This document shows, piece by piece, positions 38,356 to 58,601 of a DNA stretch of 64,000 nucleotides. The position numbers and the translations under genes are program-made. The first letter of the stretch is position 1. Every line of letters starts with the position of its first letter. The stretch is taken from positions 1,426,001 through 1,490,000 of the forward strand of contig NZ_CP015772.1 of NCBI RefSeq assembly GCF_001654455.1. The letters run 5' to 3'. Source of the stretch: Niabella ginsenosidivorans (GTDB lineage: Bacteria; Bacteroidota; Bacteroidia; Chitinophagales; Chitinophagaceae). Under the pieces are notes generated by a model. That model searched no databases, was not told the origin of the DNA, and saw only the letters and a list, made by a program, of their open reading frames with translations.

Positions 38356-38894
38356 AATGGCGCCGGTGCCGCCCGCATAACAGGGCGATAGCATTTGGTG
38401 CGTTGTACTGCTATACAGGTAGGCGTGCATGGTACACCAATGTTCAGGCAGCATTTTAGAGTTTGAAACGATTTAACAAAAGAGGCTGTCAAAATAAAAA
38501 AGCCGTCATATCGGCTGAAGCGAAGTAGAGATATTTCATAATCAATACAAAACATTTTATAAGATTTATTGGCTACACTACATTTCGAAATGACGACTTT
38601 GGTTACACCCTTGTAGCTACTTATTTTGCTATGCTTAATCAGCGTATTAAAATATCCTTTAGAAAAATAGTTCAATGAAATCCAGATTATCCGCTCTTTT
38701 ATTTTTATGTGCAATCTTTCCCTCTCTGCACAATTTAACCCTGGTGTGGGAGCAAAATCAGCCAACACAGTTTGTTTTCAGAATATAAAAATAGTTTATG
38801 ATGCTCATGATCCTGTATGAGAGGGCCTCTCGTTTACGCTATACAGGTAGAGTAAACAAACCACAACATGCTGCGATAATCAAAAGTTATGGTA
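38356..38894. other. Intergenic region with repeat fragments upstream of the intron
   Basis: About 540 bp. Bases 38482-38605 (GAGGCTGTCAAAATAAAAAAGCCGTCAT...CGAAATGACGACTTTG) look like another MITE-type element with one eroded end. GAGAGGGCCTCTC at 38819-38831 and GTTTAC...GTAAAC just after it form short hairpins close to the intron's 5' end. Part of this could be the 5' exon or the first bases of the intron. Confidence 0.45.
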
Positions 38895-39337
38895 GTGAGC
38901 GATGTTGGAAAAGGCTGCTAAAGCAGTCAGGTAAGTATTAAGGAGTTGAACGAAAGTGAACCGGCCGATGGCCGATCGATAAAACTACAGATCCTGTCAA
39001 AATTATCATGATCCTATGTATGGTAAGAATCAATTATAATGGTTACCTGTTTACTGGCTATAAGGCAGGCAGTTGTAAGGCGGCAAGAACTTAATACAGG
39101 CTATTGGAACTTGAGAAACTACTTTCGTGATGCGCGAAAGCCTTACAGGGGTTTGGAACTATCCTTTCCATCCTTTTCTTTAAAGGAGCTGTAATTCAAG
39201 GTATCCCTAAGGGAGCCGATGCACGAAAGAGTGGCGGACTAAGCCATAGTAGCGAAGACGTCCTGTGAAAGCAGGAAACAGCGAAGGGCTTGGGTTATCC
39301 ATGTAATGAACTTACACAACCATAACCAAATGGGAAG

Positions 39338-40594
39338 ATGAAAGATGCAATTACAAAATCACTGCCGGTAACATACGATATGGTGTGGATAGCGTACCTA
39401 CAGGTTAAGGAGAACGGAGGAAGTGCAGGAGTGGATAAGGAAAGTCTCACGGATTTTGAGGCTGATTTAGCTGCGAACCTGTATAAGATCTGGAACCGGC
39501 TTGCCAGTGGAAGCTATTTCCCACCACCCGTTAAAACGGTGCTTATTGACAAAAAGAGCGGTGGCAAAAGACCGTTGGGCATTCCAACGGTTGGAGACTG
39601 TATTGCACAAACAGTAATCGAGCAGTACATTGAAGCAAAGATCGACAGCCTTTTCTACGCCAATTCCTATGGTTACAGACCGGGCAAAAGTGCGCATGAG
39701 GCTATTGCTTCATGTGAAAGGAATTGCAAATTATATAACTGGGTCATAGACCTGGATATTCGCAATTTCTTTGAGACAATAAACCATGACATATTAATAG
39801 AGCTGATGTGGCATTATACCCAGGAAAAATGGGTAGTAATGTACATCCAGAGATGGTTACAGGCAGATATCCAGCAACCCGATGGGAGCATACAATCCAG
39901 AAAGCAGGGCACGCCGCAAGGCGGTGTGATCAGCCCGCTTCTGGCCAATGTATATTTACATCATGTTTTCGATCAGTGCATGGCCTGCAGTAACGAGCAT
40001 CAATTTCAATTGTTTGAAAGGTATGCTGATGATATTGTGGTACACTGTCGTAGTAAAGCTGAAGCTGAAAAGCTATTAGCTGCAATCAAGGTAAGACTGG
40101 AGGATTACCAGCTTGAGGTACACCCGGATAAAACGCGGTTGATCTACTGCAAAGACTACAGAAGGAAAGAAAAGCATAAATCAAACAGCTTTACATTCCT
40201 TGGATTTGGTTTTGAGCCGGGAATGAGGTATATCAGAGCGGCAAAGAAAATGACGATGCGTTATTTTCCCAGCATTAGTAAAGATGCCAAAACCAGTATC
40301 CGGCAATCCATGCGAAAAGTATTGATACCAAGATGGATTGATGTAGATCTGGAAGAATTTGCACATAGATTAAATCCGAAGATCAGGGGATGGGTACAGT
40401 ATTACACAAAATTTGACAAATGGGCCATATCACCGGTGTTCATATACCTGAATACTTTAATTATGAAGTATCTCAAGAATAAATACCGTATCAGGACGAA
40501 AGATAAGGTCTATAAGAAATTTGTAGAATTACAGACCCAGCAACCGAAGTTGCTTGTGCATTGGACTTTTGGAATAAGAGTAGGTTTAGGATAA
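39338..40594 (+). CDS. Group II intron reverse transcriptase/maturase
   Basis: A 418-residue intron-encoded protein that helps the intron fold and splice and copies it into new sites by target-primed reverse transcription. RT blocks: KRPLGIPTVGDCIAQTVI, YGYRPGKSAHEAI, VIDLDIRNFFETINHD, KQGTPQGGVISPLLANVYLHHVFD and the active-site YADD at residues 229-232. The X (maturase) domain covers about 300-400 (LNPKIRGWVQYYTKF). No HNH endonuclease follows, so the element is endonuclease-minus and may prime from nicks or replication forks. The frame is intact. Confidence 0.96.
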   Translation: MKDAITKSLPVTYDMVWIAYLQVKENGGSAGVDKESLTDFEADLAANLYKIWNRLASGSYFPPPVKTVLIDKKSGGKRPLGIPTVGDCIAQTVIEQYIEAKIDSLFYANSYGYRPGKSAHEAIASCERNCKLYNWVIDLDIRNFFETINHDILIELMWHYTQEKWVVMYIQRWLQADIQQPDGSIQSRKQGTPQGGVISPLLANVYLHHVFDQCMACSNEHQFQLFERYADDIVVHCRSKAEAEKLLAAIKVRLEDYQLEVHPDKTRLIYCKDYRRKEKHKSNSFTFLGFGFEPGMRYIRAAKKMTMRYFPSISKDAKTSIRQSMRKVLIPRWIDVDLEEFAHRLNPKIRGWVQYYTKFDKWAISPVFIYLNTLIMKYLKNKYRIRTKDKVYKKFVELQTQQPKLLVHWTFGIRVGLG

Positions 40595-40597
40595 CAA

Positions 40598-40631
40598 GAG
40601 CCGGATGCGTTGAGAGGCGCACGTCCGGTTC
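40598..40631 (+). ncRNA. Group II intron domain V
   Basis: The 34-nt catalytic hairpin, with GAGCCGGATGCG and CGCACGTCCGGTTC pairing around GTTGAGAGG. It carries the AGC-type catalytic triad and the two-base bulge expected in this domain. It starts 4 nt after the reverse transcriptase stop codon. Confidence 0.9.
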
Positions 40632-40678
40632 TGTGAGCGGCTGATGCTGAAATGCATGGGTCTACTCGACTTAGCAAC

Positions 40679-54342: not shown

Positions 54343-54363
54343 TGTCTACTTGTTTGGTAGATT
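54343..54363 (+). promoter_or_regulatory. Operator site 1, TGTCTA-N9-TAGATT
   Basis: An imperfect copy of the palindrome AGTCTA-N9-TAGACT. The 9-base spacer contains TTTG, as at the third site. It lies 28 bp upstream of the poly-cysteine ORF at 54391. A good TAnnTTTG element is not present downstream, so the promoter may depend on an activator or be degraded. Confidence 0.65.
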
Positions 54364-54390
54364 AATAGTAAAAGTTCTAAAAAACAGAAG

Positions 54391-54486
54391 ATGAATTATC
54401 AAAACCAGCACGTAATCATCTCCCGGGTTACACTAACAAACTTTAATAACAGCAGACGGGCACAGCATCGGTTTTGTTGTTGTTGA
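54391..54486 (+). CDS. Candidate poly-cysteine leader peptide 1
   Basis: A 31-residue ORF with ATG start (MNYQNQHVII...) ending SRRAQHRFCCC-stop. Three consecutive Cys codons (all TGT) directly precede TGA. It starts 27 bp after operator site 1. Short ORFs ending in Cys runs act as cysteine-responsive attenuators in mycobacteria; ribosome stalling when Cys-tRNA is scarce controls the downstream gene. Here no gene follows for about 560 bp, so it either acts over distance on the TauE/SafE fusion gene at 55050 or is a leader whose gene was lost. Not a structural protein. Confidence 0.55.
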   Translation: MNYQNQHVIISRVTLTNFNNSRRAQHRFCCC

Positions 54487-54613
54487 AGTATCTGACTTTT
54501 TTGCAACGGCCAGGACTATTGCATCCAGTAACGTGAATTGCACGTAGCGGAGGCGGATTTGCACTATTTATAAAATATAATGTATAGCAAGAAGGACCTG
54601 TTCAGGCTTGTTT

Positions 54614-54634
54614 ATTATACTTATTTAGTAGACT
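54614..54634 (+). promoter_or_regulatory. Operator site 2, degenerate left half
   Basis: ATTATA-CTTATTTAG-TAGACT matches the right half-site and the 9-bp spacer pattern but has lost the left half. It aligns with site 1 over CTT(A/G)TTT(A/G)GTAGA(C/T)TAAT. It is the weakest of the four copies. Confidence 0.5.
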
Positions 54635-54960
54635 AATGAATATTGATTTATTACTTAGCATTCACCTGTTATAGTGAGTTACATCAAAAAGAGCCTGTTG
54701 ATATTTTTATCGCTATTTATGAATGTTGCTTTTTGTACGGCGTATTGTCAGAATATAAAAGCTGTTATTCATTCGGTCCTGGAAGGCCGGCAGCCGTGGC
54801 AAAGGAGAAGAAAGCAGCGCATCGAGCAATCTGGGGTTCCGGTGTGTGAAAGATATAAGCCCTGTAAAAAAATGAAATCGGTGTAAAGGCTGAATAACTA
54901 CTGATTTACATAGTTGCATTGGTGAAAATACTGCTTCAGGAAATGTGTTTTCATATGTTA

Positions 54961-55002
54961 AGTCTATTTATTTGGTAGACTATTAAAGGGCTATTATCTT
55001 TG
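54961..55002 (+). promoter_or_regulatory. Operator site 3 overlapping the promoter of the TauE/SafE fusion gene
   Basis: Perfect palindrome AGTCTA (54961-54966), N9, TAGACT (54976-54981). Its spacer holds the -33 TTG (54972-54974), and TATCTTTG (54995-55002) is a perfect -7 element 20 bp further on. The regulator would sit on the -33 element. Transcription should start near 55008, about 40 nt before the gene. Confidence 0.75.
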
Positions 55003-55049
55003 CCGCTCTGTTATGCGCAGCTTCAACAGGAGACTTTTCAAATAAAATA

Positions 55050-56363
55050 ATGAAGAATAAACGCATTCCTGCATCAGATATAAATGAAAGTATACCGCAA
55101 ATAAATGCCCAGGTTTTTGTGCGTGTGGAAAAGGTGAATGTACTGATGATAGGTGGAGATCGTTATGCATTGAAGCGGCTTAAGGAAATTTTAAGGAACG
55201 CCCCATTGGCATCTGTAAAAGTTGTGGCAAAAGAGGCAGACGCTGCTGTGCTGGATCTTGCTGCAGCCTTTCCAAATATAAAGATCGTTAATAAAGAATA
55301 CGAGGCAACGGATATTGAAAATGCTGATATTATTTTTATTGCTGCAAAACAACAACAGCTTATTCAGCAAATAGAGGATGATGCAATCAGCCGGGGCCTG
55401 ACCAATATTCCTATTATTGAGGACCAGACGGGCAGAGATACCGGCGTAGCCCGGATTTCCGGCATTCAGCAAAACAGACAATCCCTGTCTTACAGAAAAA
55501 TGGCTACTTATGCGATAACCGCTTTTGGCCTGATGCTTTTGGGCCATTTCATTTTTTCTTATTTGCCGATTCATTCCTTAAAAGCGCATGCGACAGGACT
55601 TTATCATTCTTTGGATAGCCGGTTTCTGATCATGCTTGCCGCCGGCTTTATAGCGCAACTGGTAGACGGCGCCCTGGGTATGGGCTATGGCGTTGCCAGT
55701 ACAACCGTATTACTTTCAGCAGGCGTGAGCCCGGCTGCCATAAGTGGTAGTATTCATACAGCAGAAATGTTTGCCAGCGGTGCTTCCGGGTATAGCCACT
55801 ATAAATTCGGGAATGTAAATAAAAAACTGTTCAAAGCACTTTTAATACCTGGTGTCCTGGGAGCCGTTTTGGGTGCTGTGCTCCTGGTATACCTGGGGGA
55901 GAAATACAGCGATTGGATAAGACCTGTATTGGCTTGTTATACAATGTTTCTGGGAACGAAAATTTTGTACAATGCTTTCCGGAGCCAGATAATAAAAAAG
56001 AAGTTTAAAAATTATAGCACACTGGCCGGTGCCGGTGGTTTTTTTGACTCTTTTGGCGGTGGAGGCTGGGGCCCGATTGTTACAACCACTCTTATTACAA
56101 AAGGACGGAGCCCGCGTTTTGTTATTGGCACTGTTAGCCTTACAGAGTTTTTTGTGACCCTGTCCAGTGCGGTCACCTTTTTTATTTTATTAGGCGTCAG
56201 TCATTGGCAGACCATTCTGGGACTAATAGTCGGCGGTTTGGCAGCAGCTCCGGTTGCCGCAAAGCTGGCAGGGAAATTACCAAGGAAAACGGCGCTTGCT
56301 TTGGTGGGTTGTTTGGTAATTGTATGGAGTGCCCGGATTCTTTTAAAAATATTTTTCTCCTGA
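55050..56363 (+). CDS. Fusion of a siroheme-synthase-like Rossmann domain and a TauE/SafE-family exporter
   Basis: A 437-residue membrane protein. Residues about 20-135 resemble the NAD-binding N-domain of precorrin-2 dehydrogenase/siroheme synthase (VFVRVEKVNVLMIGGDRYALKRLKEIL...VNKEYEATDIENADIIFIAAKQQQ). The dinucleotide loop is GGDRYA, where siroheme synthases have GGGxVA, so catalysis is doubtful. Residues about 145-437 form the TauE/SafE permease (FIAQLVDGALGMGYGVASTTVLLSAGVSPAAISGSIHTAEMFASG; FFDSFGGGGWGPIVTTTLITKG), which moves sulfite or organosulfur anions. The fusion suggests redox or sulfur sensing coupled to transport; this is inference. It is controlled by operator site 3. Confidence 0.85.
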   Translation: MKNKRIPASDINESIPQINAQVFVRVEKVNVLMIGGDRYALKRLKEILRNAPLASVKVVAKEADAAVLDLAAAFPNIKIVNKEYEATDIENADIIFIAAKQQQLIQQIEDDAISRGLTNIPIIEDQTGRDTGVARISGIQQNRQSLSYRKMATYAITAFGLMLLGHFIFSYLPIHSLKAHATGLYHSLDSRFLIMLAAGFIAQLVDGALGMGYGVASTTVLLSAGVSPAAISGSIHTAEMFASGASGYSHYKFGNVNKKLFKALLIPGVLGAVLGAVLLVYLGEKYSDWIRPVLACYTMFLGTKILYNAFRSQIIKKKFKNYSTLAGAGGFFDSFGGGGWGPIVTTTLITKGRSPRFVIGTVSLTEFFVTLSSAVTFFILLGVSHWQTILGLIVGGLAAAPVAAKLAGKLPRKTALALVGCLVIVWSARILLKIFFS

Positions 56364-56483
56364 GCGGTATTATATTATTGGATGCCGGCTGCAGGCTTCG
56401 TGAAAAATTCAGGCATACCGGCAAAATGATCATGATACCGGCTGCTGTTTTTGCACCTTTACCCATATGTTTTCTTATAGAAA

Positions 56484-56514
56484 TAAAAAGGGCATTCTGT
56501 AAAAACAGAACGCC
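56484..56514 (-). terminator. Terminator after tRNA-Cys (minus strand)
   Basis: On the minus strand GGCGTTCTGT and ACAGAATGCC pair, followed by CTTTTTATTTC. It lies about 28 bp beyond the tRNA 3' end. The same hairpin could also slow plus-strand transcription from the TauE/SafE gene. Confidence 0.7.
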
Positions 56515-56542
56515 AGTTCTCTGGTTTGATCTTGCCTGAAAG

Positions 56543-56613
56543 ACGCCACGGCAGGATTCGAACCTGCGTAAAAGATTTTGCAAAGCTCCGCCTGACCGCT
56601 CGGCCACGTGGCT
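56543..56613 (-). tRNA. tRNA-Cys (anticodon GCA)
   Basis: A 71-nt cloverleaf: D-arm GCC GAGCGGTCA GGC, anticodon loop TTGCAAA with GCA at 34-36, 4-nt variable loop, and a perfect T-arm GCAGG TTCGAAT CCTGC. The discriminator is U, as expected for Cys. Two oddities: an A1-G72 mismatch at the acceptor tip and a C30-U40 mismatch in the anticodon stem. No CCA is encoded. It lies 65 bp after the SDR gene on the same strand. Confidence 0.85.
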
Positions 56614-56678
56614 TTATAGAGTACGGATGGTGTAACTTCATATAGATGTATCCTGTTTCAGCAATAAGGGCCCCGTTT

Positions 56679-57458
56679 TTAGCGGGGTTTATAAATGTTG
56701 GCCGCTACCCGCTCTACAAGGCTCTTGGGTATAAATTTTATTATGGTAGCATTCAGTTTATTGGTAAATCCCGGAACAATTTCTGCTTTGCCCTTTAATA
56801 AACCTTTTACTGCGATCTTTGCCACTTCCTGCGGGCTCATATTGAATTTTTCTGCTGTTTTTAACGTATGTGGCTGCATTCCCGCTCTTGAAACAAAGGC
56901 GGTGTCTGTGGCACCGGGAATCAAACAGCTTACAGATACCGTACTGTTTTTTAATTCAAATCTCAGGCTCCGGGTAAAGGATATAACAAATGCCTTGGAA
57001 GCCGCGTATACTGATAAATAGGGTACAGACTGGTAACAGGTAGTGCTTCCTACATTTAATAAATAGGACTTGGGGAACTTCTGTAACACGGGAATAAATA
57101 AGTGGGCAATGCGTAATTGTGCTTTTACATTAACATCAATAATGTTTAATTGCTCTTCCACAGGTGTTGTAAGAAATGGTGTATTTAAACCATAACCTGC
57201 GTTATTGACAATGATTCTTAAAAAAGGATGATAGAGTTTTGTTTTTTCAAATAGCAGGCTGGCAGCATGCGGATCAGATAAGTCCTGCACAATTGTCTGA
57301 ACTTCTACAAAGTGCTTATTCCGGATATAATCAGCGGCTTCAGACAGGCAGGGTTCGTCTATATCCACCAAAAATAAGCTCTTCTTTAATTTGGCTAATT
57401 CAATGGCAATGGCGTAACCAATACCTTTTGCTGCTCCTGTTACAAGTGCATACGACAT
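56679..57458 (-). CDS. Short-chain dehydrogenase/reductase
   Basis: A 259-residue classical SDR. The NAD(P)-binding motif is TGAAKGIG (7-14), followed by VDIDEP (cofactor preference undecided) and NNAGYG. The active site has Ser in LNVGSTTCYQ and Tyr-Lys in YAASK. The C-terminus GKAEIVPGFTNKLNATIIKFIPKSLVERVAANIYK is typical of the DltE/YqjQ-like group. The substrate is unknown. It starts 60 bp after the PhyH gene and is followed by tRNA-Cys, so all three may be one transcript. A weak hairpin (CCCCGC/CGGGG) overlaps its stop codon but lacks a U-tract. Confidence 0.92.
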   Translation of the reverse strand: MSYALVTGAAKGIGYAIAIELAKLKKSLFLVDIDEPCLSEAADYIRNKHFVEVQTIVQDLSDPHAASLLFEKTKLYHPFLRIIVNNAGYGLNTPFLTTPVEEQLNIIDVNVKAQLRIAHLFIPVLQKFPKSYLLNVGSTTCYQSVPYLSVYAASKAFVISFTRSLRFELKNSTVSVSCLIPGATDTAFVSRAGMQPHTLKTAEKFNMSPQEVAKIAVKGLLKGKAEIVPGFTNKLNATIIKFIPKSLVERVAANIYKPR

Positions 57459-57518
57459 ATTAACCGGCGGTTTTTTTTCTGAAATAGTTTCGTAACAGTG
57501 TTATAATTAATAACGGGA

Positions 57519-58385
57519 TCATAGGGAAGGTGTTAATCCGGGTTCATTTTGTGCAATTGTACGCTGTTTAGGTCTCCAGTTGGTGAACCGGGCTAACTGG
57601 TGATAGATCGGGGTTTTACTATCGGCATGCTTGGGAGCATAAGCCCCGGTTACTACAGGTATGTACATAACACGCCTGCGGCTTGACTCCCCGATATGTG
57701 GTGACTGCTGCACCCGGTGCCACAGGCGCCCGTCATGCACAGTAAGGTCTCCGGCCTCAATATCAAAGCCGATTTCCTTCTCATCCGGTTTATGGTCTAT
57801 AAAATATTTCTTTTTAAAGAACAGGGTTAGTAATCCTTTGTTATGTGTGCCTGCCAGAACCCGCAACCCGCCATTGCTTTGAGGGCAATCATCCAGATGA
57901 AGGCCAACGTTCAGCATGGGTTTTATTCTTGATCCCAGGAAGAGGTCCCGGGGGCTGTCGGTATGCCAGCCCAGTCTTGTAAATCCGCTGTCCTGGGTGT
58001 TTAAATAATGATTCACTACAAGGCCATCTTTTTCTGTTGCCCCGATGCGTCCTTCAAATGGGCGCAATAAATTTACGATCTGCTGAACACGATCACTTTT
58101 TAAGAAATTGTAAAGCGCTGCGCTGTACTGGGAGGCAAACGCGATGCGTTGTATAAGGGGCGACCCGTCTACATCAGTGCCGAATTTTAGCGGGATGCCA
58201 TTTACGCTGCTTATACTCTTATTTAGTAAATATTTTTCTACTGATTTTACTTCTGCAATGAATTCCTGCACCGCTTCAGGAGTAATAAATTGTTTGAAAT
58301 GCAGGATGCCATGTTCTTTCAGGTGGTGGATATGTACCGGCTTTATTGCATCCGGAAAATAGAAAGGTTGTGTCGGCTGGCTCAT
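57519..58385 (-). CDS. Phytanoyl-CoA dioxygenase (PhyH) family protein
   Basis: A 288-residue Fe(II)/2-oxoglutarate oxygenase. The metal triad is in WHTDSPRD (His and Asp, HxD) and the distal His of VHDGRLWHRVQQS, with the 2-oxoglutarate-binding Arg in the following RRRVMYIP. The cupin fold is visible in PMLNVGLHLDDCPQSNGGLRVLAGTHNKGLL and IGFDIEAGDLTVH. PhyH members hydroxylate many substrates, so no reaction is claimed. Expression appears to be tied to cysteine or sulfur status by the operator and leader ORF upstream. An oxygenase of sulfur-containing compounds is an attractive but unproven idea. Confidence 0.88.
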   Translation of the reverse strand: MSQPTQPFYFPDAIKPVHIHHLKEHGILHFKQFITPEAVQEFIAEVKSVEKYLLNKSISSVNGIPLKFGTDVDGSPLIQRIAFASQYSAALYNFLKSDRVQQIVNLLRPFEGRIGATEKDGLVVNHYLNTQDSGFTRLGWHTDSPRDLFLGSRIKPMLNVGLHLDDCPQSNGGLRVLAGTHNKGLLTLFFKKKYFIDHKPDEKEIGFDIEAGDLTVHDGRLWHRVQQSPHIGESSRRRVMYIPVVTGAYAPKHADSKTPIYHQLARFTNWRPKQRTIAQNEPGLTPSL

Positions 58386-58458
58386 AATAATGATATTAAA
58401 AGGGTTAAGAATGGATAAAAGTAAAGGTGGGGAAGACAGTAAGTATCCGGCAAATGCA

Positions 58459-58539
58459 TTAACAACAACAGCACATACCTGCCAGATACGATAAGATCCG
58501 TATCGATTGTGCTATGTGTATTGTTGTTGTTATAATCAA
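58459..58539 (-). CDS. Candidate poly-cysteine leader peptide 2
   Basis: An ORF from a TTG at 58539, or only MCCCC from the ATG at 58476, in the leader of the PhyH gene. Its 26 residues end LSYLAGMCCCC-stop, with TGC TGT TGT TGT just before TAA. The stop is 73 bp upstream of PhyH. The Cys codons (TGTGCTGTTGTTGTTA) can pair with an upstream segment TAACAACAACA...GCACA (58532-58508), and a GATACG/CGTATC hairpin lies between. This is the architecture of an attenuator in which ribosome position decides RNA folding. The start codon is uncertain. Confidence 0.5.
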   Translation of the reverse strand: MIITTTIHIAQSIRILSYLAGMCCCC

Positions 58540-58559
58540 GGTATAAAGTAATTTGGAGA

Positions 58560-58601
58560 CAAATATATAGGCAATTTATTAGTCTACAAAATTTATAGAC
58601 T
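58560..58601 (-). promoter_or_regulatory. Operator site 4 and promoter of the PhyH-SDR unit (minus strand)
   Basis: Perfect palindrome AGTCTA (58581-58586), N9, TAGACT (58596-58601). Reading the minus strand, -33 TTG (58589-58587), 19 bp, then -7 TATATTTG (58567-58560), an ideal Bacteroidota promoter. The TTG lies in the palindrome's spacer, exactly as at site 3. Transcription should start near 58553, giving a leader of about 168 nt that contains the poly-cysteine ORF. Confidence 0.75.

Follow-up and report, generated by a model that had tools for sequence, protein, structure and literature searches.

In Bacillus and Staphylococcus the Rrf2-family cysteine regulator CymR functions together with CysK as a complex, and IscR holds its iron-sulfur (Fe-S) cluster through the ligands C-x5-C-x5-C-x2-H. 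Work by Canestrari from 2020 is said to concern leader peptides with runs of cysteine (Cys) in Actinobacteria. In the parts of the sources available to us, such Cys-run leader peptides stand upstream of cys operons in Actinobacteria (PMC1262725), the Cys attenuator uORFC-8-2 stands upstream of cysS in Rhodobacterales (PMC8632094), and an Rrf2 protein carries the label 'regulator of sulfate adenylyltransferase' (PMC8557817). Here we describe a 27-bp dyad from Niabella ginsenosidivorans, found in a 64,000-nucleotide stretch of its genome (hereafter the window) beside the genes for a TauE/SafE fusion protein and a PhyH-family protein. Our comparative evidence argues for a two-layer sulfur/cysteine control that probably combines an Rrf2 repressor over the promoter with attenuation at leader open reading frames (ORFs) ending in Cys codons, and so supports the dual-level response, operator plus leader peptide, that a preliminary description of this DNA had proposed.

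The operator dyad

The dyad has the consensus ATTAGTCTACTAAATTAGTAGACTAAT, in short form ATTAGTCTAC-N7-GTAGACTAAT. Four sites of a hexamer pattern (AGTCTA-N9-TAGACT), two of them exact, had been described in the window, and a pattern search recovers all of them: at 54343..54363 and 54614..54634, each with two mismatches to the exact dyad (scores of 20.1 and 25.4 in the position matrix introduced below), and at 54961..54981 and 58581..58601 as exact dyads (23.7 and 34.1). They are alone in the window at up to two mismatches, and at up to three there are 11 matches against a chance mean of 16. Their assignment to both strands was meaningless, since the site is a palindrome and has no strand. By itself the hexamer pattern is unspecific, because at up to one mismatch it occurs at 9 places in the whole genome and its backwards control at 18; with the spacing off by one base, the genome yields two-mismatch matches only. 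An AT-constrained exact form, AGTCTAYNWWWWWNRTAGACT, is found at 56 places in 33 of 117 genomes of the family and its reversed control in 0 of 117, and the stricter TAGTCTAC-N7-GTAGACTA at 13 places in 8 of the 117 (control 0). A scan of an 84,980-genome collection, which included no control pattern, returned 69 stretches, 68 from Bacteroidota by record title and one from a Rhizobium. This sole match outside the Bacteroidota, in Rhizobium sp. ICMP 5592 (L134, L304), comes from a genome with a 45% identical Rrf2 homologue divergent from a cysH homologue.

A position matrix built from 57 distinct sites, all from other genomes, gave twelve own sites scores of 12.4-34.6, the next score being 8.0; it was run on stretches around pattern matches and Rrf2 genes (315,520 own bases, with some overlap), and weaker own sites elsewhere may be missed. 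A weak site scoring 8.0 lies in the gap between two sulfatase genes (L035:8077; G000:C1:978076).

The accessible part of a study of Bacteroides gives the promoter -7 consensus as TAnnTTTG (PMC7366714). This motif occurs within the first 60 nt on 32 of 97 gene sides of the sites, 18 of them starting 13-15 nt past the site core, and on 9 of 94 other sides (4 at 13-14 nt), a spacing by which the dyad overlies the -33 element, suggestive of repression. The like placement of a -33 TTG within the spacer of two window sites, already noted in the preliminary description, holds for those at 54961 and 58581, both of which contain TTTG: in the former it lies at 54971-54974, 20 nt before a -7 type box, TATCTTTG, at 54995-55002, and in the latter it is followed at 19 nt by a minus-strand box of the same TAnnTTTG type, TATATTTG, at 58560..58567. 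This predicted -7 box of the PhyH gene ends about 20 nt ahead of the leader ORF, a distance to be set beside the leaderless start of mycobacterial poly-Cys short ORFs.

A candidate regulator beside the sulfate-assimilation genes

Four Rrf2 proteins are encoded in the genome, one of which (G000:C1:4493595-4493999) lies outside the window at the head of a sulfate-assimilation (cys) cluster. This protein beside cysHDN is very probably the regulator of the operator. It scores 122 bits against PF02082 (cut-off 30) and 124.8 against TIGR00738 (cut-off 73.3), falls below the equivalog cut-offs of CymR (NF047409, 71 versus 195 bits) and IscR (TIGR02010, 85.4 versus 207.55 bits), and matches PDB entries 2y75 and 3t8r, with IscR among the best PDB matches. 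Every one of the 31 Rrf2 rows keeps the residues C91, C100, C103 and C108 (own numbering), and His or Asn stands three residues past C108. The resulting pattern, C-x2-C-x4-C-x2-H/N with an upstream Cys, departs from the IscR spacing, and an Fe-S cluster may be bound through a spacing other than IscR's.

All 33 exact-site genomes are among the 79 of 117 that have an Rrf2 match (E<=1e-20), and sites occur in 0 of the 38 others (hypergeometric P 1.4e-7, the genomes not being independent and kinship being uncorrected). Among 21 further site genomes from the collection scan, eleven of them Flavobacteriales (nine Chryseobacterium, a Flavobacterium and a Moheibacter metagenome-assembled genome), 19 encode a protein that matches Rrf2 at E<=1e-10, and the two exceptions are metagenome-assembled genomes. 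A site scoring 13-32 lies directly between rrf2 and either cysH or a TauE gene at all nine Chryseobacterium loci and is absent from that position at the one Flavobacterium rrf2 locus read (9 of 10 Flavobacteriales positive). Sites between rrf2 and the peroxiredoxin gene prx are present in L149, L222, L229 and the own genome, where the first prx ATG follows 63 nt past the site. The full rrf2-locus set comprises 32 loci, five with a site scoring over 8, and L066 among them has no Rrf2. Across site-bearing genomes, the helix-turn-helix stretch of the protein is largely conserved.

Cysteine-rich leader peptides

Short codirectional ORFs with Cys codons clustered near the stop, which is the criterion for a Cys leader peptide, lie upstream of several of the genes that carry a site. 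PhyH homologues were found by protein similarity in 100 of 394 genomes, and 50 loci were examined, comprising the 30 best (own included) and 20 hand-picked from the list; 25 of them have a site scoring over 8. Under a strict rule (CC in the last five residues), a short ORF is present at 20 of these 25 (shuffle mean 0.48, maximum 3 in 100), and with L180, L188, L190 and L195, in which the cluster lies slightly further in, a poly-Cys leader is found at 24 of 25, L193 being the site-bearing locus without one. PhyH loci without a site have such a leader in 0 of 25 cases. In the PhyH tree the site is almost confined to one clade (24 of 27 members, plus L218; 3 changes). The leaders diverge almost throughout and keep the Cys cluster.

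Own site-gene pairs have leaders in 6 of 10 cases (TauE, SusC, TonB and PhyH) under a rule, CC in the last eight residues, that was chosen after the leaders had been seen; shuffling gave a mean of 0.46, and 0 of 1000 shuffles reached 6. Over all sites, and with near-copies removed, ORFs in which a stretch of 4 residues contains 3 Cys occur on 14 of 97 gene sides (shuffle mean 0.61, maximum 4 in 100); the other sides have 1 in 94 and the control intergenic regions 3 in 112, of which one lies upstream of a PhyH gene. The suggested tie between poly-Cys leaders and the operator is borne out by their recurrence after sites in other genera. Further leaders stand before SusC-type genes in L278 (a same-genus genome) and L109, before a glutamate dehydrogenase gene in L116, and, in other orders, in Pedobacter (L154, before PhyH) and Mucilaginibacter (L127). 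An Rfam search of the leaders gave no match. A plain TGYTGYTGYTRA scan as a leader measure (69 places, 30 read) was dropped, as most of the 30 overlap longer genes.

A hairpin-plus-T5 scan for intrinsic terminators found none in 24 PhyH leader-gene spacers, one of which belongs to a wrongly picked frame (L175). The PhyH spacers longer than 40 nt (n=23, shorter ones being left out) are C-rich and G-poor, with a C-G value of 0.135 against 0.026 in site-less loci (P 2.7e-7), which largely represent another PhyH clade, and 0.024 in other intergenic regions. By its composition, this spacer perhaps resembles a Rho-loading site, such as would follow the leader in a tnaC-like, Rho-dependent attenuator.

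Genes that accompany the operator

By matrix and gene annotation, the twelve own sites make up nine loci. Three sites belong to the TauE fusion of the window and one to its PhyH unit, which includes a short-chain dehydrogenase (SDR); one lies between rrf2 and prx and heads the run prx-cysH-cysD-cysN-cobA-cysJ-cysI-cysE-cysG/TauE, and two accompany a TonB receptor gene directly following this cys cluster. Four further loci are of the SusCD type, namely an ECF sigma-FecR-SusC-SusD-sulfatase run, a SusC-SusD-sulfatase run with SusC in two ORFs, a SusC-SusD pair with a divergent sulfatase, and a SusC-SusD-GFO/3-keto-disaccharide hydrolase run, and the remaining one is a TIM-barrel/two-component/efflux unit divergent from a fatty-acid hydroxylase. 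Among these SusCD loci, the SusC-type protein has TonB-receptor plug domains at the first, third and fourth and matches the SusC/RagA model at the second. At L041:5540-8610 (G000:C1:4919540-4922610), the SusC-type gene of a SusCD-sulfatase operon is split into ORFs of 450 and 560 aa. A sulfatase lies within 8 kb at four of the nine loci (random mean 0.76, P 0.005, given 31 sulfatase matches in the genome), and of 83 SusD matches, nine are within 8 kb of a sulfatase, six of a site and four of both (P 0.0009), two of the six site-near matches being merely neighbours of the window sites. The check for further sites and their downstream genes, put forward in the preliminary description, was thus run and returned the sulfate-assimilation cluster, sulfatase-bearing SusCD operons and TauE genes.

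In other genomes, neighbour genes were clustered over 82 loci (13 from the stricter-pattern family scan and 69 from the collection scan), and 20 cluster representatives were annotated. The neighbours include SusC/TonB-type and carboxypeptidase-regulatory-domain proteins (19), PhyH (10), NIL-domain proteins (7), a Cys/Met-metabolism PLP enzyme (4), fatty-acid hydroxylase (3 directly, more behind a small gene) and sulfatase (2), as well as CysD, Prx and others; no Pfam family is assigned to a cluster of 7 (L093 type). Sites also occur at cys operon genes, in the cysH-cysD gap of L096, in the cysN-cobA gap of L284 and directly before cobA in L285.

Fatty-acid hydroxylase genes come right after the operator, or after an intervening small gene, in the own genome (L038:8440) and in L088, L090, L097, L117, L132, L133, L138, L146, L157, L278 and L279, which makes a link to sulfonolipids or to membrane remodelling under sulfur shortage possible. 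L135 has a ceramidase-like protein after the operator, and in the Chitinophaga loci L104, L129 and L140 a Hen1 RNA-repair gene stands on one side of the site and the gene for a Cys/Met-metabolism PLP enzyme on the other.

Other features of the window

The gene at 55050..56363 (plus strand) encodes a CysG-N-like domain (PF13241) joined to TauE/SafE (PF01925). The fusion was recognized earlier, with its first part described as a Rossmann domain, which is corrected here to PF13241. The CysG-TauE protein of the cys cluster has the same domain at its N-terminus and is 50% identical to the window fusion over the TauE part. Upstream of the fusion gene (54343-55049) are three sites in tandem and one orphan poly-Cys leader. 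Of the two Cys-terminated ORFs reported downstream of sites, both are present, and the placing of the first is amended: MNYQNQHVIISRVTLTNFNNSRRAQHRFCCC (54391..54486, plus strand, ending in RFCCC before the stop) stops 563 nt short of the TauE start, two more sites lying in between, and its target is uncertain. In the three relatives of this genus whose stretch includes TauE, the gene is preceded by one or two sites and by no leader; the orphan leader and tandem sites may therefore be the remnant of a lost operon.

On the minus strand, the leader of the PhyH gene, LIITTTIHIAQSIRILSYLAGMCCCC (58459..58539, TTG start, ending in MCCCC before the stop), is followed by the gene for the PhyH-family protein, a putative Fe/2-oxoglutarate dioxygenase (57519..58385), the SDR gene (56679..57458) and, downstream of it, tRNA-Cys(GCA) (56542..56613). 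Pfam PhyH is the one family assignment of the dioxygenase, no NCBIfam family being found for it at E<=1e-20, and its nearest solved structure is MysH (E 2e-5). The genes and order of the PhyH-SDR unit followed by tRNA-Cys are as first described in the own genome; tRNA-Cys as a member of the unit is not supported, as it follows SDR in the own genome and three of six same-genus relatives (G309, G119 and G022, not G335, G358 and G379), and it was not seen there in the scanned loci of other families. Elsewhere in the window, Rfam matches to a group II intron (group-II-D1D4-2 at 38819-38932 and Intron_gpII at 40596-40670, together spanning 38819-40670) flank a 418-aa ORF (39338-40594).

Discussion

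Our comparisons establish, at the level of sequence, the operator, its placement over the promoter, its links to Rrf2 and to sulfur genes, and the Cys-codon leaders. For repression and its effector, we infer that the palindrome would be the operator of the Rrf2-family repressor encoded at the head of the sulfate-assimilation cluster, that bound repressor would block transcription while sulfur suffices, and that it would be released when sulfur, cysteine or a dependent Fe-S/thiol state falls. Ribosome stalling and its readout, which we likewise infer, would provide a second check on a subset of transcripts (PhyH-SDR and several SusC/TonB operons), each with a leader ORF of about 15-45 codons and its Cys cluster at or near the end. 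Where Cys-tRNA is scarce, the ribosome would stall on the leader and the downstream gene would be made; where Cys is plentiful, the ribosome would leave and attenuation would follow, at PhyH perhaps through Rho loading on the C-rich, G-poor spacer. More tentatively, the two checks could form an AND gate, in which the SusCD/TonB systems (some with sulfatases) and PhyH-SDR open only if Rrf2 reports low sulfur and lack of Cys-tRNA stalls ribosomes. If this were true, glycan-type uptake systems would be run for sulfur rather than carbon, and PhyH-SDR would represent an undescribed sulfur-scavenging or sulfur-sparing pathway.

Several observations weigh against two-layer sulfur control. The sulfur theme first proposed for the site-linked genes stands for the cys, sulfatase and TauE loci, but some neighbours elsewhere have no evident sulfur link, including Hen1 (4), glutamate dehydrogenase, HAD, DUF2490, DinB and MarC, and histidine kinase and glycine-transporter genes also adjoin sites. 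At 5 kb, the overlap of SusD, sulfatase and site falls to 1 of 3 and is not significant (P 0.17). Among the leaders, the 0/25 contrast at PhyH rests on few events, because a single clade holds nearly all the sites. Loosening the CC rule weakens the comparison over all sites, with 10 of 97 gene sides, 7 of 94 other sides and 4 of 112 controls positive (shuffle means 1.6-1.8). In four leader pairs dN/dS gave no clear sign of constraint on coding, and the own SusC, TonB and TauE leaders do not have the C-rich spacer. Intergenic Cys-run ORFs with no site within 1.5 kb also exist, at L053 (G000:C1:518850, ending in RGCCC before the stop) and L054 (G000:C1:606109, ending in KKCCCC). Finally, most other family rrf2 loci (thirty, with 1.5 kb flanks) lack a site, and 46 of the 79 Rrf2 genomes have no exact site. 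The many rrf2 loci without an adjoining site, together with the post hoc leader rule, led us to lower our confidence slightly.

The sparse adjacency also bears on the identity of the regulator. An exact site lies within 25 kb of rrf2 in just 8 of 33 genomes, sites thus being mostly far from the gene, as would be expected if another regulator bound the palindrome and Rrf2 were merely a regulated or linked gene. We consider this improbable in view of the strict co-occurrence of site and Rrf2 in the 117 genomes, their adjacency in two orders, the largely conserved helix-turn-helix and the length of the dyad, which is as expected for Rrf2 dimers. A stronger contender, though still an unlikely one, is that Rrf2 is mainly an Fe-S/redox sensor (IscR-like and peroxiredoxin-linked), with the sulfur genes as one arm of an Fe-S or oxidative response and the Cys leaders acting independently of it. 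The invariant Cys set with its His/Asn, which we take to resemble the IscR ligands, favors such a sensor, as do the peroxiredoxin gene in the same short locus at 14 of 31 rrf2 loci and the best equivalog scores (IscR 85 bits, CymR 71, both below cut-off), and iron is a conceivable cargo of the target TonB receptors; against it, the targets, of which part are annotated, include many sulfur-acquisition genes and no suf/isc gene. The leaders themselves invite another explanation, in which a conserved TGTTGTTG RNA element pairs elsewhere in the leader and the Cys-terminated ORFs are its by-products rather than cysteine sensors. The Cys codons of the window PhyH leader can indeed pair with upstream ACAACAACA (fold z -2.07), and Cys codons fold into hairpins in other leaders as well, but the pairing partner differs by locus, Cys is retained also where the codon is TGC and where the run is interrupted (RCCSCRC, RCCACCC), in frame and for the most part right before the stop, and no leader-type match occurs on the opposite strand at the 25 PhyH leaders that have a site, so that we give this explanation little credence.

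If two-layer control by Rrf2 and Cys-codon leaders holds, a sulfur regulon of the Bacteroidota would come into view, comprising an operator, its candidate regulator and leader peptides as a second layer; its testable members would be the SusCD-sulfatase loci, TauE fusions, PhyH-SDR and fatty-acid hydroxylase. This suggests that some loci resembling polysaccharide-utilisation loci serve sulfur acquisition. We recognized no report of an Rrf2 sulfur regulon or of poly-Cys leaders in Bacteroidota among the titles and abstract beginnings searched, a search that left most subscription literature outside. With CymR, the system shares the Rrf2 fold family and the putative control of cysteine and sulfur-source genes via a dyad operator, whereas the protein described here scores below the CymR cut-off, has four conserved Cys in its C-terminal part and is encoded beside prx/cysHDN; the CymR operator also differs from the dyad described here. 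IscR gives the nearest equivalog score, is among the best PDB matches and likewise has a Cys set near the C-terminus, but the score is below the cut-off, the targets here are sulfur-acquisition genes, and the ligand Cys spacing of IscR is unlike that of this Rrf2. The labelled Rrf2 protein is similar in its predicted control of sulfur metabolism and differs in belonging to another phylum and, as far as the accessible part of the source goes, in having no sulfur genes in its neighbourhood and no mention of an operator or leader peptide (PMC8557817). In the portion available of the respective source, uORFC-8-2 also has tandem Cys codons in an upstream ORF, yet it is described with an intrinsic terminator and two prominent stems (PMC8632094), whereas the PhyH spacers here have no terminator-like element. 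The Actinobacterial leaders, as far as the available text describes them, are closer in form, being short ORFs that have consecutive Cys codons close to the stop and lack an obvious terminator, with a role of Rho suggested (PMC1262725), while those described here belong to Bacteroidota, are coupled to an operator and precede genes for PhyH and for outer-membrane uptake, not cys operons. In summary, Rrf2/CymR-like sulfur regulators and Cys leader peptides are both of known kinds, apparently unreported in Bacteroidota, which would become one more phylum among those having Cys-run leader peptides.

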